A stretch of DNA of 64,000 nt from the NCBI GenBank assembly GCA_031310005.1, contig CM062381.1:1426001-1490000 (forward strand), given 5' to 3'. A model generated the notes under the pieces. The model had not been told where the DNA came from and did not search any database. It saw nothing but the letters and a program-made list of their open reading frames with translations. Positions within the stretch are counted from its first letter, which is position 1, and each line of letters starts with the position of its first letter. This DNA is from Dactylellina haptotyla. Its lineage: Eukaryota; Ascomycota; Orbiliomycetes; Orbiliales; Orbiliaceae. Position numbers and translations under genes: made by a program. Shown piece by piece: positions 5,242 through 21,600 of this stretch.

Positions 5242-6100
5242 GGCTGTGGCTGTTCCTGGGTACCCCCAAGCGTTTTTTCAAGCTGTGGCTCAAAAGGGTG
5301 GATGAAAGGGTCTATGAATAGCTATCTCAACTCCGTTAGAGCTTTGACCATATTCCTCAATGCCGCTGAGGGATACAGATTAAGACGTGTGCCACCCGAG
5401 CTTGCGGTCCGATATACTTGGTGGTTGTAGATCTGGAATTTGAGCGATCGTTCAAGACTTTTGATAAGAGTCGAAAAGGCAGTAGTTGTATTTTGGGGCT
5501 TTAGGTTTTTTGAGCGGTGTTGTTGTGGGGTTGGTTTGTGGTGTACAGTTTGCCCAGCAACAAAGAGTCGCCGAAGCTGAAGCTAAAGCTAGCTTCCAAT
5601 TACACCTTTTAAAGGTTTCTGGAAGTTCTTACCTGATTCAAAGAAACGGCGGGGTAATATTTCGATATCAAAATTTTTTCATAAGCTGTGCCTCTCCAAG
5701 AGTTTATAGAGGCTTTTTTATCTAGATATTTTTACAAGTTTGGTATCTCTTTCATCAGATAACTCTCTGTATAAATGGTATAAACTAGAACACAAATAGC
5801 ATATACATTAAGGCGAATTGCTATGTGGATGCAAGTACTTACGCATGCCTATAGTAGAATCCGGCGGGTTAGATGAGGTCACATAAGGTTATAAGTATTC
5901 ACTTCTGATGATCAAGATGGCCCAGCAATCATATATATTTACACATTCATTTTAGGTGAGGTAGTGTATATTGCATGTTCAAGATTCAGAATACAACCCT
6001 TCTAAAATTGCATTAGCTTTGAGGCTTGAGCTAACACGATTTGCGTTTACAATTTTGGTCGCTCATCCAAAGGTAAACCCTTCACAAACAGTCCCGAAGT
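5242..6100. other. Intergenic, importin promoter
   Basis: This holds the 5' flank of the minus-strand importin gene. An open stretch at 5486-5725 begins at TTG, not ATG, has a hydrophobic start and an Ala/Glu run, and is not supported as a gene. The rest is AT-rich and I see nothing else in it. Confidence 0.4.
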
Positions 6101-14600: not shown

Positions 14601-16191
14601 ATTTTGGACATACGAGGATATGCACTAGTTGTAGCTAATTTGGGATTAAAAAAGGCCTAGTCAACGAGCCATGATATTCGAGCTGGCCTGATACTTTCTC
14701 CAGCTTTCTGTGGAGCAACTAACTCTACGGACAACTAACTGTCAACTTGTGAATCGTTTCAGCCGGCCCAGGCTTTGCCAAATTGACAAATGATGAACCT
14801 GAATTCTCGAGGACGGCTTGCCCACTGTATCCACACCTATTCCCAAAAGGATCGGCTTGCCGCGGGAGAATTCTCTATCGAGGAGCAGTCCAAACCGGAT
14901 TAATCTGCGACTAGGGATGAGGCAAGAAACAGTCTTCAGGTGCGGTCTGCTTCAACTCCAATCCCAACACAAGACGACGTTCGAGAAGCGGCTTGGTTCG
15001 CTCCTTGCCATCTAACCACATCTCAAGCCAGTACGAGCTTAGTCACGTCCAAACGAACTAGTGGTTTCGAAAACCAACTTGTCCGGCGAGCTGAACTAGG
15101 TGGCTCGCGAGCCCGTATGCCGCGGGATTGCTCTCTCTCTAGACCTTTTGCTTTGATACTGGTCTATGTGATCAAGAGCTTGGAGATTGAGGATCGAGCA
15201 GAGCGATATATTCTGATGCCCAAGCTGAAGCCGCCCTGACCCAATCATAAATTCGTTTGACAATGGGCTGGAGACAGGATATTCCTGGTTCGATGTTAAC
15301 ACCGACCAGTAGCTTGACCTGATGCTGCGGGCGGTCCCAGCCTTGACAGGTCCTTTTTCACTTCAACCGCTTGTGGTCCCCTGCACCTGGAGTCTCCCTG
15401 AGGCAGTGGGTTCCCTCTGCGACCCACCCTCAATTGGATAACGAATCTCCGCCCACAGGCTTCCTTTGCTTTTTGACTCCGAAGGTTGTTAGCGTTGAAG
15501 AACCCCCCCTGTCACATCTACTCCCATTAACCATATCTCGAAAGCTTTGGCCCATCGATCCCGAAAGCTGCTCAGAATGCACAAGACTGGCTGTTCTGAC
15601 CCAAAAAACAAAAATATCTTCCTTTTTCTCGCTGCCGCACCGATGCAAATGTGGGCTATCTGGTGAATAATATTTTAGAGCACCGCTCTCGTAGTCTTTC
15701 CTTTCAAAGGAACCGCGATCCCGGCAACGCTTCGCCTTCACATCAGACCCCGCGCAGACATCGTCGCGCAATTTAAACACGCTGGGAATGCCGCTTTCGG
15801 TGGATTGAACATTGGATGAAACAACAAGGAATCAAGCCTCGCGCAAATCCCAACTTCCAAAAAACTGATATATTGAGCCCAATTCCAGTGGAGCTAAACT
15901 GCCCAGGTTACTCGCTTGGTCGTTAAGCGTCTTAATTCGGATCCAAATAATACTGGTCCCTCCAACCTAAACGAATCACTGAGGGCCCCCCAGCTTCCTC
16001 CCAGCACCGGAGCAGAAGGTCAACCCCCCTGGTGCAGTGCGCCCGGTATTCAGTTAGGACATTTCCTTCGTGGAAGGGCATCCCTGGTAAGCTCCATTGC
16101 ATTATTTCTGCACCGGATCCTGCAGTTGCCGGCAAATCAACCCCATCCTGGTGCAGATAACTTTCTTTCTGTTCGTCGAAGAGCGGATACA
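8604..16191. other. 7.6-kb gene-poor region upstream of the Myb regulator
   Basis: No open frame here has a recognisable domain. The longer ones start at non-ATG codons or are shadows. A 116-aa ATG frame (12328-12678) with a basic Lys/Arg tail is the least unlikely candidate, but nothing supports it. Short near-repeats of about 25 bp lie at 14119-14143 and 14260-14284. Base composition is mixed, with no clear sign of a mobile element. The likeliest content is regulatory DNA for the Myb gene and possibly non-coding RNAs. Confidence 0.45.
12328..12678 (+). CDS. Weak candidate ORF, 116 aa
   Basis: An ATG-started frame in the gene-poor region. It is basic throughout, with an aromatic patch (MWEKYYFRGNSYYERNGWVW) and a Lys/Arg-rich end. 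No domain is recognised, there is no intron and no leader signal. It is listed only because it is the longest plausible ATG frame in the region; it could easily be chance. Confidence 0.15.
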   Translation: MEFAVPKPERLPRFPKRRTRRDGAIRRDIFALRTVSPAIPGKLLTTRMTTCSLSAKVLGKFLLKDMWEKYYFRGNSYYERNGWVWEIPLDEVQCLKLNIEDMTKKRKATRFKSDKR

Positions 16192-17325
16192 TGTACCAAA
16201 AAGCTTTTGGTGTGGCAAGCTTCAGGTGGAGAAACCAACGGGCCGAGCAACTATAGAACGGTATCCTATACCTCTAGGCTCCTTTTCCTGACAGCAGCGA
16301 GGAAACAAAAGGAAAAAACGGTATCAGTTGCCCTCCCTTTTTGTGGCCCCTTTGGCATAAAACGGAATTGGTACTAGACTTGCACCCCCTCCCTTGCTCT
16401 GCCTTGCCCTCCCTGTCCCTCTTGCCTGCCGTTCGAATTAAGCTGGCTGTCAAAGCAATATATTATCATTCGGGGAGAAACAGGAAAAGCAGCTAGCACA
16501 CAAAAACCGCACAAAGCCTCCCGCGGCCGTTTTTTATCAGTCGCACTTTAAGCATCGCTTCGATCTTCTGCTTGCTTATTTTCCGTTTTATACACAATAA
16601 AAGGAAAACCTATAATAGTACATCTCTTGTCCCCGAAACTTTCTTTCTGTACTTCCTGATCCGACCTCCAAAGCTCCTCTTATTTATTATTCCTGCTTGC
16701 TTCCCTTGGATATTTGTTATCCTTACCATTAATATTCCCAAGACCGCGTCTCATCCGATATATCAGTTGAATACTTTGTTTTGTTTCTTGCCGACGCTCT
16801 GCCGACGCTCTTCCGCGAAACTTGACCTGACCACTAGGAACTCATCCGTTTCTAACTTTTGGTTTTCTAAACACAGAGCTAACTAGCCCAAGCAACATTA
16901 TCGCACTATTTTTCTTTTCTTCCTTTGAAGTAAATCAGAGCACGATAAGATTCATAGGTTGTCCTACTCGTTTGATTGGGGCGAATAAACCATAACCATA
17001 AGACACCACTTGGAAAGTTCTTTCTTGGTACCTGGTTTGGAAAGGAAGATTGCTTTCTTTTCCGGACTTGCAGACACGCATCGACTTTCCTATCAAACAT
17101 AAAAACCCATTAAGTCTTCCAAAGTTTCGGCTTTGGCAGACTTTACCACCAGTTTAAAACCTGGCTGTCCAAATATCTCGAGGAGAGCCGCTGCCTCTCT
17201 ATAGCTTTCGCCAACCTGAATTTTGGCGATCACCTATCAACGAGCACTTCAGTCCTTCCTTCCCCAAGGCTAACATAACTAGCCCTCCTAGCCAACTCCC
17301 TCTGACAGAGTTCAGCACAACTTCG
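16192..17325 (+). promoter_or_regulatory. 1.1-kb ATG-free leader of the Myb gene
   Basis: Between the ATG at 16191 and the start codon at 17326 there is not one ATG on the plus strand, over 1,134 nt. Chance would give about 15-18. On the opposite strand I count 15 (as CAT). The stretch has stops in all frames, so it is not coding. The pattern is what selection leaves in a long transcribed 5' leader, where upstream start codons are purged. The leader is rich in pyrimidine tracts and may contain introns. Confidence 0.7.
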
Positions 17326-18280
17326 ATGCAGTATCAGCCTCTCCATCACCAGGGGGGACCCCACTCCAACAATGGCAACATGGGTGGTCATTTACCTCAT
17401 GCTGACCATTACACGCTCACACCGACTCATACACCACACTCTTCGGCTACAAAGCCCAGGAGTCGAACATTTCATGATATGGTAGACGATGATGTTCAGG
17501 ATGTAGACCACCAGAATCCACATTTACACTCACAACATCATCACCACCAGTTGCCAAATCATAATGGGTATCATCATCAAGGCGATCAACCTCCCCCTCT
17601 TAAGATTCAGCGAGCAGATTTTGACGATCTGCTTGGGCGGCAACCTATGCCTATGGGTGGGCCAGGTTCTCTACTTGGTGGACCACCATCATTACAAACA
17701 CCTGGTCAACAACAAGGTCAAATGTATGCTCCTGGAGGTCTCGGAAACCAGGGCCATCTGTCACCGATAGAGCCTCTAAGACCGAACCAAGGTGGCCCTC
17801 CGATGTTAGGCCCAGTACCCGGCTCTCCGCATATGTCTCATGGCGGGGTGCAATCTATGGCGACCGCTGTTGGTGCTCCAGGAATGCCGATGCCAATGCC
17901 CCGCCCCAGAGGACCAAAGTTGAAGTTCACACCGGAAGACGATGCTCTTTTGTTAGAGTTGAAGGAGAACAGAGCTTTAACATGGAAACAAATTGCCGAA
18001 TTTTTCCCCGGAAGATCTTCGGGTACATTACAAGTTAGATATTGTACAAAGCTGAAGGCAAAGACGACGCAGTGGACAGAAGATACGGTAAGCCTTTTAT
18101 GTTTTGTCCGGCTTGAAAGTTTTTTAAGTTCTAGTTGACTAATAATATCATCAGATCCAGCGACTTCGAAATGCGATGCAGGAGTATGAGAATGATAGAT
18201 GGCGTCTGATCTCTGCTAAGGTTGGAAACGGTTTCTCCCCAGCTGCTTGCAGGGAGAAATCAAAAGAGATAAGCATTTGA
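17326..18280 (+). CDS. Two-repeat Myb/SANT DNA-binding regulator, short form (295 aa)
   Basis: Likely a nuclear transcription regulator. Exon 1 is 17326-18087, the intron 18088-18154 (GTAAGC...CAG, phase 0), and exon 2 18155-18280. Residues 1-195 are low-complexity, rich in His, Gln, Pro, Gly and Met. Residues about 198-245 form the first SANT/Myb repeat (KFTPEDDALLLELKENRALT, WKQIAEFFPGRSSGTLQVRY). Residues about 250-290 form the second (QWTEDTIQRLRNAMQEYEND, RWRLISAKVGNGFSPAACRE). The frame stops at TGA 18278-18280, seven codons after the conserved CREK. The next codon is CTA and then G, the best-known leaky stop context, and the frame continues to 18616 (see the extension). Isolation between two large gene-poor flanks and a long leader fit a developmental regulator. 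Function is inferred from the fold only. Confidence 0.88.
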
Positions 18281-18616
18281 CTAGCCGACCCTGACGGGAA
18301 GTCCGAGGAGGGGAGTTACTCCCCTTCTCACGAAGGATTTCCTGTCGGGGATAATGAAGCATCGATTTCATTCGATCAAAGAGACAACCAAAACGACAAT
18401 CGTGAGCCTCAGCCAATGCCTCACTCGATTCCTCAGACGATTCCGCAACCTCTGCCTCCGCAGCACCAGCAAAATCAGCAGCCTTTGATACCCCCGCTGC
18501 ATAGAGCAGGGCCAGTGCCCCACCACCTCCCATTGCCATTCGATTCAAATCCTGATCGGTATTCGAATCTCCAGTCGCCGTATCAGACACTTCCACCAAA
18601 GCACCCCCTTCCTTAA
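18281..18616 (+). CDS. Predicted stop-readthrough extension of the Myb protein (111 codons, 407-aa long form)
   Basis: In the same frame as the Myb exon, 111 codons stay open after the TGA, up to TAA at 18614-18616. The content is protein-like and matches the N-terminal style: an Asp/Glu/Ser start (ADPDGKSEEGSYSPSHEGF), then Pro/Gln/His-rich sequence (MPHSIPQTIPQPLPPQHQQN, HLPLPFDSNPDRYSNLQSPY), typical of fungal activation domains. No intron that keeps the conserved CREK can remove the stop, because there is no GT between it and the stop. Two weak phase-compatible alternatives, donors GTCTGA and GTTTCT to the TAG at 18281-18283, would delete the second repeat's recognition helix. Readthrough is therefore the better reading, and is supported by the RNA hairpin just after the stop. 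Confidence 0.68.
   Translation, partial: LADPDGKSEEGSYSPSHEGFPVGDNEASISFDQRDNQNDNREPQPMPHSIPQTIPQPLPPQHQQNQQPLIPPLHRAGPVPHHLPLPFDSNPDRYSNLQSPYQTLPPKHPLP
18289..18350 (+). promoter_or_regulatory. RNA stem-loop 3' of the leaky stop (readthrough stimulator)
   Basis: Paired by hand. Left arm 18289-18304 (CCCTGACGGGAAGTCC) pairs with 18335-18350 (GGATTTCCTGTCGGGG) over all 16 positions: 13 Watson-Crick and 3 G-U pairs. Directly inside, 18305-18315 (GAGGAGGGGAG) pairs with 18319-18329 (CTCCCCTTCTC) over 11 positions with one G-U pair. The loop is UUA at 18316-18318. The only interruption is a 5-nt bulge (ACGAA, 18330-18334). The helix starts 8 nt after the UGA. Extended stems at this spacing after UGA-C are known to stimulate readthrough in alphaviruses, some plant viruses and Drosophila headcase. 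A perfect 27-pair fold inside coding sequence is very unlikely by chance. Confidence 0.85.
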
Positions 18617-21600
18617 AATTCTACTCGATATCTGCACCAATCTCCCTATCGGTCACTATTGTTATTCGGCGCGCCTCTCTGATCGAAATACGAGCCAGAT
18701 GACAATCTCGCTAAGATACTGGATTTCCGTGTCAATAACCCTAACCTGATAACTCTGTGCCTATCTTTTTTTCATCTCTGCTTCTTTTTTAGCAACCAAA
18801 AGAGTATGCATAATCGCGAGTATCGCACATTCCTTTGGGCTCACTCTAATGACCTGGATATTGTACTTCTTTTTTTCTGTTTGTTTTTGTTTGGGACTTA
18901 CAGGGCAAGGGGCGTTATACTGAATATTATGTCTTTTTTTTTTCCCCTACCAAGATTTTGCATATATTTCTGGCTATTCTTCATTATGTGTGCATGCATA
19001 TGTTTGTGTGATATTCAGTTCTCACTTCTTTTATCCATTTTGGACATGGGGTTGGAAGTTCGTCTCCGATGTTTTTAGGGGTGTTTAGATTTTTAGTGCA
19101 CCACACCCCCCTTCGAGACTTCATGAAAAGAAATATTACACCCACAGCTTGTTTTATTTTATTTTATCATTTTACCCCTATGTGTTGGGAGGATATATCT
19201 CATGCCGCTAATAATGGCGCATGACGGCGAACGACTCTTTTTTTTTTTTTTTTTGTATTACGGAAGGGAAGCTAAGCAGAGCATTCGTTTCTGAAACCAT
19301 TATACCCTTTGGATTTTATCAAGCACCTAAATGTAGAACCATATCATTCCGATTAAGAACAGACAGAACCTTCTTGCATTTTACCGAAATAATTCAAGCG
19401 ATAATACATTTTAAGGCTGTTACATATGCACTTCTGTTTTCTCCAATAGCACTGTGATATCATAATTCGGAATCCATGCGGTTTATTTTTGTCAACTTGT
19501 AACTCGGGCCTGCCCCAGTCCCCGAAGTTGCGAAGATACGACATATAGCATACCGTCGCTATATTCTGGACTTGGGACTCATGGGCTGAAAAGGCTGGAT
19601 TTGCTGCCTGTATTTGTCTTACTCATACTCTCTCTCAGCCAGCCAAGGTCTGCTCCCTGCTATTGTTCAACCCCAGAGACTGTAGACGAGAAATCCTGGT
19701 TAAATTCTGTTAATTACCTCGGCCCTAAATGTTCCGATACAATTTTTTGGTTGCATAAGCGACAGTAGAAAGGGAAATATGAATGATCGATCACGATCAC
19801 GTTGATCAAGTGGTACGACTAATACATGTTAGCACAATATGATATTGGCATTAACACCTTCACCTATACTGCTTAATTGTCTCCAGCCCCGTCGATTTCC
19901 TTTCTTCTCACCTGAAGAATGTCGACATGTCTCAACTGCTCCATCTTTCTCCGCACGTAACTGTTGGCTCTAAGCAAAATAACAGTAATTGGAGGAAGAC
20001 CAAAAAGGCGCTCTTTTGACAGCGGGGGGTTATGGAAAATTCTTCCACCCAGCAATGACAGGCCAGCAATCCAACCGCTCCAATATGGCAGGAACTGTCC
20101 CAGCTGTAACAAGGCTCTATGGTTCAGCCCCTAGAATTCGAGACATCCTCCAGCAGAGGTTGGGCGGGATGATAGTGACAAAGGGATGCAGTTTTTTTAT
20201 CCAATTGGTTGCTTTGCATGGCCTGATAACAGGAGTAAGGTATTTTTCTTTTTGACGAACTGCGAACTTGATCCGTGATCCTTGCAGACTCCAATCGACA
20301 GAGCATGTCAGATCAAAAACTTTTTGTGTGCATCTCGTGACTGACCGAACGCCGACAGAAAAGAAAAAAAAAAAGCTCCCCACTTGCGTTCTGCAAATGC
20401 GAAAGAAGTTTGCGTTCTGGCTCCTGTTATGGTTGCAACATTAAACCTGGAGTAAGCTTCGCTGTGAATTTCTCGGTAAATAAGGGAATAAAATAAAACT
20501 CCGTTTATACAGAATTGGCGAGCTCTGCAAGTATCAAATGAGGTGCATTTTTTAATTCCCGAGGACTCTGCATCCTCTGTTTTCGAATTCACCACGGTTA
20601 TTGATCATCGAACACATTCGGTCCTTACATTATTATCTAAATTCCGATTCAGCAAGCATTACTCGAGTTGCGAGGTACAGAAAAGAATTCCCCATCCCGA
20701 GGCAGATCCTGCTCTGAACGGAGAATCGTCTTCTTGCGTATACCCAGTGCGGTGCCGTGATCTCCACCTTTTGTCGACACATTCAAGGATCCTGCCAGTT
20801 CGTAACTCCTCTTCACTGGTGACAGATGCATGTTTCCCGGTCCCCCGCCAACCCATGCAACTCGTTCCGACTCTGAGAGCAGTTGAGGAAACATTTAGAG
20901 AAAGAAGAAAGCGCACACCCACCTCCAATCCGCCCGTTTGAGTTTAGGTGGCTCATCAGAATCCCATTTTCTGCCGCTCCATGTGGATTGCATGCCATAT
21001 AACGGTTCTTGGCTGCAGACTACAGGGTTGTACGTTTTCGCCTTCAAGAAATTCGAACCCAACCCACTCAACGTCGGAACAAGTGTCTACCCACTTCCAA
21101 AGTCGCGGATCATTTGGATAATCTTTACCATATGGGCCGTTTGGGAGCCTGACATCAATATACTAGCAACTCCTTGCTTTCTGCACGAGAAAAGCGGTTA
21201 GGACCATGACGGAGAAGTAACCTCTTTGGCACACCAGCCCCGCACAAACTATCAAAGGGAGTCCTTGGAAATTTCTCGCCTCGAAAAGTTGTGAGGCACA
21301 CCAGCCCTGAGCTGATGCAGTCAAAACAAGCATGAGCGGTTAGACGACATTACGTTTGACCGTTGTAATGCGCCGTGGAGCGGACAGTTATTCGAGAGCC
21401 CCATGAGCATGCAGCCGAAAATCCCAATGTCCTCAGCTTCATCAAATGCGGCCAAACTCAAAGGCTGAGAAGCGGCCGCGGTCTAAATTACCTAAATTGG
21501 AAACAGACTGGAGGAAAACCCCACCATCAGAGGCAGCCTTCAACCTTGAAACCCTTTTGTTTTATTTTTTATTTTTTTGGGGGATTTTATTTGGCCTTTT

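Follow-up and report, generated by a model that had tools for sequence, protein, structure and literature searches.

As far as the accessible portions of the reports go, one class of stop-codon readthrough signal consists of UGA followed by CGG or CUA, often with a stem-loop about 6-12 nt downstream (PMC11166343). UGA CUA G is termed the high-readthrough motif (PMC12233894), and in mammals UGA-CUAG drives efficient readthrough in OPRL1, OPRK1, MAPK10 and AQP4; UGA-CUA alone supports about 1.5% readthrough, and ACP2, whose predicted stem-loop lies 6 nt past its stop, falls outside the four efficient genes of the seven tested (PMC4132726). UGA-CUA(G) is described as a weak termination context in which higher levels need downstream, often structured, sequences, and in fungal metabolic enzymes UGA-CUA readthrough leads to dual localisation (PMC4207609). 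Among readthrough candidates in flies and mosquitoes, 9-10% have an RNA structure predicted on their 3' side, as against less than 1% of other transcripts, and several of the fly stem-loop candidates gave no strong readthrough in yeast (PMC5100048). In filamentous ascomycetes, no extension of PaYIP3 was found in Arthrobotrys oligospora (PMC3777964).

The locus analysed here lies in a 64-kb window, the whole stretch of 64,000 nucleotides under study, from the genome of Dactylellina haptotyla (39.8 Mb, 11 contigs), a fungus near the nematode-trapping Orbilia group. It holds a gene for a Myb protein whose frame, as the original prediction stated, ends in TGA (18278-18280) and runs into CTAG. Both parts of a Type II readthrough signal were found at this site: UGA followed by one of the triplets CGG and CUA (TGA CTA G, 18278-18284), and a stem-loop within about 6-12 nt, here a predicted stem of 27 pairs after a spacer of 8 nt. 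The in-frame open frame of cellular readthrough genes is likewise present, with 111 codons. That a leaky UGA-CUA(G) with a structure belongs to a known class, as had been claimed, is borne out by the available text of four sources (PMC4132726, PMC4207609, PMC12233894, PMC11166343). With the class as set out in the portion of PMC11166343 at hand, the Myb site has UGA, CUA and the stem-loop distance (here 8 nt) in common; it differs in being a fungal nuclear gene, in encoding a Myb protein and in that its signal is predicted. Programmed readthrough of this stop, which would yield as a minor product a Myb isoform whose P/Q-rich tail is like an activation domain, is in our judgement rather probable.

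The Myb gene and the end of its frame

The spliced Myb frame (17326-18087 joined to 18155-18280) encodes a two-repeat Myb protein of 295 residues, in which exon 1 contributes a His/Pro/Gly-rich N-terminus and then the first Myb repeat. Removal of the intron at 18088-18154 creates the peptide WTEDTIQRLR, which is also found in the models of Orbilia brochopaga and Dactylella cylindrospora. The spliced protein passes the Pfam cut-offs for two families (PF13921, 60.8 bits; PF00249, 41.6 bits), and its Myb part matches eight distinct solved-structure sequences at E<=0.001, the best being 1h88_C. The features of the locus are collected in the table.

Features of the Myb locus, in positions of the window
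Feature	Position	Strand	Basis
Myb gene exon 1, coding part from ATG	17326-18087	+	start and sequence match Orbiliomycete models
Intron GTAAGC...CAG, 67 nt	18088-18154	+	sequence; predicted from DNA
Exon 2 to stop, second Myb repeat, ending ...REKSKEISI	18155-18277	+	sequence, Pfam, homologues
UGA stop, then CUAG (18281-18284), leaky context	18278-18280	+	sequence; literature on context
Candidate readthrough extension, 111 codons (18281-18613), TAA 18614-18616	18281-18616	+	sequence
Spacer from stop to stem, 8 nt	18281-18288	+	sequence
27-pair RNA hairpin	18289-18350	+	pairing check, folding, window ranking
Hairpin lower stem, 16 pairs, three G-U	18289-18304/18335-18350	+	pair-by-pair check
Hairpin upper stem, 11 pairs	18305-18315/18319-18329	+	pair-by-pair check
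Hairpin loop UUA	18316-18318	+	sequence
Hairpin bulge, 5 nt, the one bulge	18330-18334	+	sequence

A protein search returned 712 proteins at E<=1e-5, the closest of which, among the best 120 of the 712, were from Orbiliomycetes: O. brochopaga (P0001; 91% identity over 72% of the query), D. cylindrospora (P0002; 89% over 72%) and Orbilia oligospora (P0003, 322 aa; 83% over 65%). Two of these three cluster representatives, compared as proteins, have gene models that stop where the UGA stands, with the ends ...REKSKEISI in O. brochopaga and ...REKSKELNI in D. cylindrospora; in the O. oligospora model the annotation puts an intron over the stop place, and not a stop. A recent nonsense mutation or an assembly error within a longer protein would account for the longer frame that follows the stop, but the end shared by the O. 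brochopaga and D. cylindrospora models runs against it and CUAG and the hairpin would both become coincidences; we consider it very improbable.

In many of the homologues read, the protein ends no more than about 15 residues from the UGA place. An abrupt end directly behind the Myb repeat (CREKAxEL or a similar sequence) is seen in P0013, P0019, P0026, P0035 and P0119, from Paracoccidioides, Coccidioides, Blastomyces, Paecilomyces and Aspergillus. By eye, a P/Q-like tail is absent in 34 homologues besides the three Orbiliomycetes (34 of the 117 others among the best 120 of 712), several of which carry other tails, and the extension would therefore be an Orbiliomycete addition. Viral contigs scanned with the O. 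brochopaga protein gave no relative.

The hairpin downstream of the stop

The geometry first proposed for the hairpin (16 and 11 pairs, a UUA loop, one 5-nt bulge and an 8-nt spacer) held pair by pair; the accompanying count of G-U pairs was right for the three of the lower stem and left one in the upper stem (18308-18326) unmentioned, so that G-U pairs make up 4 of the 27. Folding of the stem region, which the original prediction had proposed as a check, gave a minimum free energy of -46.5 kcal/mol for 18281-18360 (z -6.93), and none of 200 dinucleotide shuffles of this segment (mean -25.5, sd 3.0) folded as well. Over both strands of the 64-kb window, the hairpin ranked first in stability among 31,966 overlapping 70-nt segments (-48.0), the next-best place being about 10 kcal/mol weaker at -38.1. 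The antisense of the hairpin reached -31.7; it is weaker because of the G-U pairs in the sense stem, and this predicted difference agrees with a structure on the mRNA strand. When the comparison was widened to 264 kb of the same genome, composed of the window and 200 kb more, the hairpin again came first (-47.4, with the next place at -41.8) among 52,758 70-nt segments taken in steps of 10.

The same 264 kb served for the site statistics. A fold of at most -30 kcal/mol within the following 80 nt was found for one of 20 TGACTAG sites and one of 85 TGACTA sites, in both cases the Myb site, and for 13 of 1,571 TGAC sites, among which one besides the Myb site passes -40. The shuffles, the ranking and the site counts therefore place the structure far beyond chance. 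The earlier statement that chance was very unlikely stands for the hairpin and does not extend to the open frame alone; runs of at least 111 codons from stop to stop make up 1.9% of 21,524, real genes included.

Elsewhere, another TGAC site, on the minus strand at about 5340-5411 of the 200-kb sample (G000:C1, from about 1085411 downwards), has a hairpin after it that reaches -45.2 kcal/mol over 80 nt. Within the window, the second most stable place is the segment 22073-22142 (-38.1 kcal/mol per 70 nt), a hairpin with stems of 12 and 9 pairs and with no TGACTA site near it.

Two other identities were tried for the hairpin of the Myb gene. Its sequence is single-copy in its own genome, both in a DNA search and with patterns allowing <=2 and <=3 mismatches; it is therefore no obvious mobile repeat, and a repeat was ruled out on the ground of this one place. 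A search of 15000-20500 against Rfam placed no known RNA family on the hairpin and gave two sub-threshold matches elsewhere.

The open frame beyond the stop

The 111-codon frame claimed after the TGA was found as described (18281-18613, closed by TAA at 18614-18616). Its second half is P/Q-rich, with 19 P and 9 Q in the last 66 residues, and ends in PLP. The tail is probably disordered, and its P/Q-richness suggests an activation domain. A codon model was trained on 52 open frames of >=250 codons, unverified as genes, and scored the extension at 0.099, where pieces of the training frames have a median of 0.0997. Equally high scores came from 18 of the 383 open runs (90-160 codons) lying outside long ORFs and from 10 of the 149 runs in a wrong frame across long ORFs. 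Over the hairpin part the readthrough frame has the best of the six codon scores (0.21); after the hairpin it falls to 0.066 and is exceeded by one other frame in sense (0.106) and one in antisense (0.122). A protein search with the extension gave no annotated relative (none of 23 candidates at E<=1 and neither of 2 at E<=10), which is expected if annotators end the gene at the stop, and equally so if the extension is untranslated.

The tail of the O. oligospora model aligns to frame 2 of the window over 18406-18504, which is 33 codons including the stop, with the same end; 15 of 32 residues are identical, and under two scorings 0 and 1 of 500 shuffles scored as well. Frame 2 differs from the readthrough frame: base 2 of its codons is base 1 of the readthrough codons, and its base 1 is their base 3. 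Counted in the readthrough frame, the comparison has 5 differences at position 1 and 14 at position 3 (one-sided p 0.032). Position 1 was equally conserved in 10/500 and 2/500 shuffles, and position 3 in 103/500 and 169/500, so that conservation is out of the ordinary at position 1 and not at position 3. Ungapped alignments appear to lean weakly the same way as the gapped one, with position 3 versus position 1 differences of 2/1 over the last 12 codons, 5/1 over 16, 7/3 over 20, 9/5 over 24 and 15/8 over 33. From one species pair and 33 codons, this pattern is modest evidence for a sequence that both species may translate in the readthrough frame.

The main rival to readthrough is an untranslated hairpin: the UGA would be the ordinary end of the gene, the open frame would be incidental, and the hairpin would be a 3'-UTR element with a role in mRNA stability or localisation, or as a Dicer substrate or milRNA-like precursor. 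The Myb domain is already complete at the UGA (18278-18280) and many homologues end about 15 residues away or less; the 18 of 383 non-ORF runs that match the codon score, the extension without an annotated protein match, and the suitability of a long near-perfect hairpin for RNA processing point the same way. Such an element would leave unexplained why UGA-CUAG stands at the class-typical distance from a stem and why position 1 is conserved against O. oligospora, and the hairpin has no Rfam family to support it. We regard this explanation as possible but doubtful.

Translation of the extension could also come about by splicing, if an exon-internal intron removed the stop and joined the Myb frame to the extension or to another tail, as in the O. 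oligospora model. That model breaks after AMQE, which is the place of a GTATGA donor at 18184, and several GT-AG pairs would preserve the readthrough frame, for example 18184-18315 and 18231-18284. Before the stop, exon 2 has GT dinucleotides at 18184, 18204, 18221 and 18231. With the last of these at 18231, a GT-AG intron that removes the TGA must cost the Myb repeat 16 residues or more; among the GT-AG joins tested that take out the TGA and keep the extension frame, the smallest loss is GFSPAACREKSKEISI from the second repeat. The lost part includes ACREK, which is well conserved (AC, R/K, one residue, K) in the homologues read. For a join into frame 2 like that of O. oligospora, the donor at 18184 finds no acceptor up to 18520, and the O. 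oligospora intron is therefore not conserved. Removal of the stop by splicing is thus improbable in our view.

As for the O. oligospora annotation itself, its break takes away the greater part of the second Myb repeat, and the frame of its tail differs from that of the candidate extension. To judge by the sequence, the intron looks like a prediction artefact, and the model as a whole is probably the artefact of a prediction that passed over the stop.

A UGA with a stem-loop a few nucleotides downstream also describes selenocysteine redefinition elements, and the site resembles them in this respect. A search of the genome, whose assembly may be incomplete, gave no match to tRNA-Sec (RF01852) at E<=0.001 among the 53 of 3,444 first-look candidates that were scored, and selenocysteine at this UGA is unlikely. 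Recoding by mRNA editing meets another difficulty: fungal A-to-I editing prefers U before the A, and in UGA this base is G. That the UGA is recoded in either of these two ways seems to us extremely improbable.

Readthrough and the known recoding systems

Programmed readthrough is the best supported of the readings considered. The motif, its spacing, the structure, the open frame, the end shared by two Orbiliomycete models and the lack of a GT-AG intron that spares the Myb repeat all speak for it, as the original prediction would have it, and fall short of proof; the coding support consists of a modest signature against O. oligospora, with other frames scoring higher after the hairpin. In the mechanism that we propose, most ribosomes would stop at the UGA and release the 295-residue two-repeat Myb. 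Some would fail to terminate, because UGA-CUAG would be weakly recognised by the release factor, while the 27-pair stem 8 nt downstream, on the mRNA entry side, would hinder termination, and a near-cognate tRNA would decode the UGA. The product would then have 407 residues, having gained a 112-residue tail that resembles a transactivation domain. What we infer here concerns the cellular function of the readthrough, its efficiency and the role of the tail.

More speculatively, the stem might be tunable, by a factor or a condition, and set the ratio of a short DNA-binding to a long activating Myb in a conserved Orbiliomycete switch; that this switch would be a two-part recoding signal of viral type in a fungal transcription factor is an equally tentative proposal. 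If readthrough is real, a nuclear gene of a fungus employs a combination of UGA-CUA and stem-loop known mainly from viruses, a transcription factor exists in two forms, and functional readthrough in fungi reaches beyond peroxisomal enzymes. A limited search of the open-licence literature found no fungal transcription factor with both signals, in agreement with what had been supposed, although this does not prove that there is none in print.

The class of mechanism is already known, and the locus can be set against its members. In the fungal readthrough enzymes the extension reportedly carries a peroxisomal signal, unlike the 111-codon P/Q-rich tail ending in PLP of the Myb gene. In D. haptotyla itself, of the two genes taken as potential positive controls for UGA-CUA readthrough, PGK ends in TAA (last exon, by eye) and GAPDH in TGA-TTA (both strands read), and the peroxisomal readthrough of other fungi is therefore not seen in these two. 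Drosophila headcase, which had been cited as a UGA-C example, has UAA as its stop; it therefore remains an example of structure-aided readthrough and not of UGA-C. As described in the accessible parts of the sources, headcase and the fly and mosquito genes share with the Myb gene a structure 3' of a leaky stop in a cellular gene, in insects in their case and in a fungus in ours (PMC5100048), and the fungal enzymes share with it the UGA-CUA(G) context in fungi (PMC4207609). The seven bases UGA-CUAG are identical in OPRL1, OPRK1, MAPK10, AQP4 and the Myb site; for these confirmed mammalian genes the available text shows conservation across vertebrates and reports no conserved RNA structure, whereas the Myb site has a 27-pair stem and its signal is known from the DNA of one genome (PMC4132726). 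Finally, PaYIP3 has in common with the Myb gene a structure-associated recoding that yields a C-terminally extended isoform in Pezizomycotina, by -1 frameshifting in PaYIP3 of filamentous ascomycetes and, as we propose, by readthrough in the Myb gene (PMC3777964, as far as its accessible text goes).
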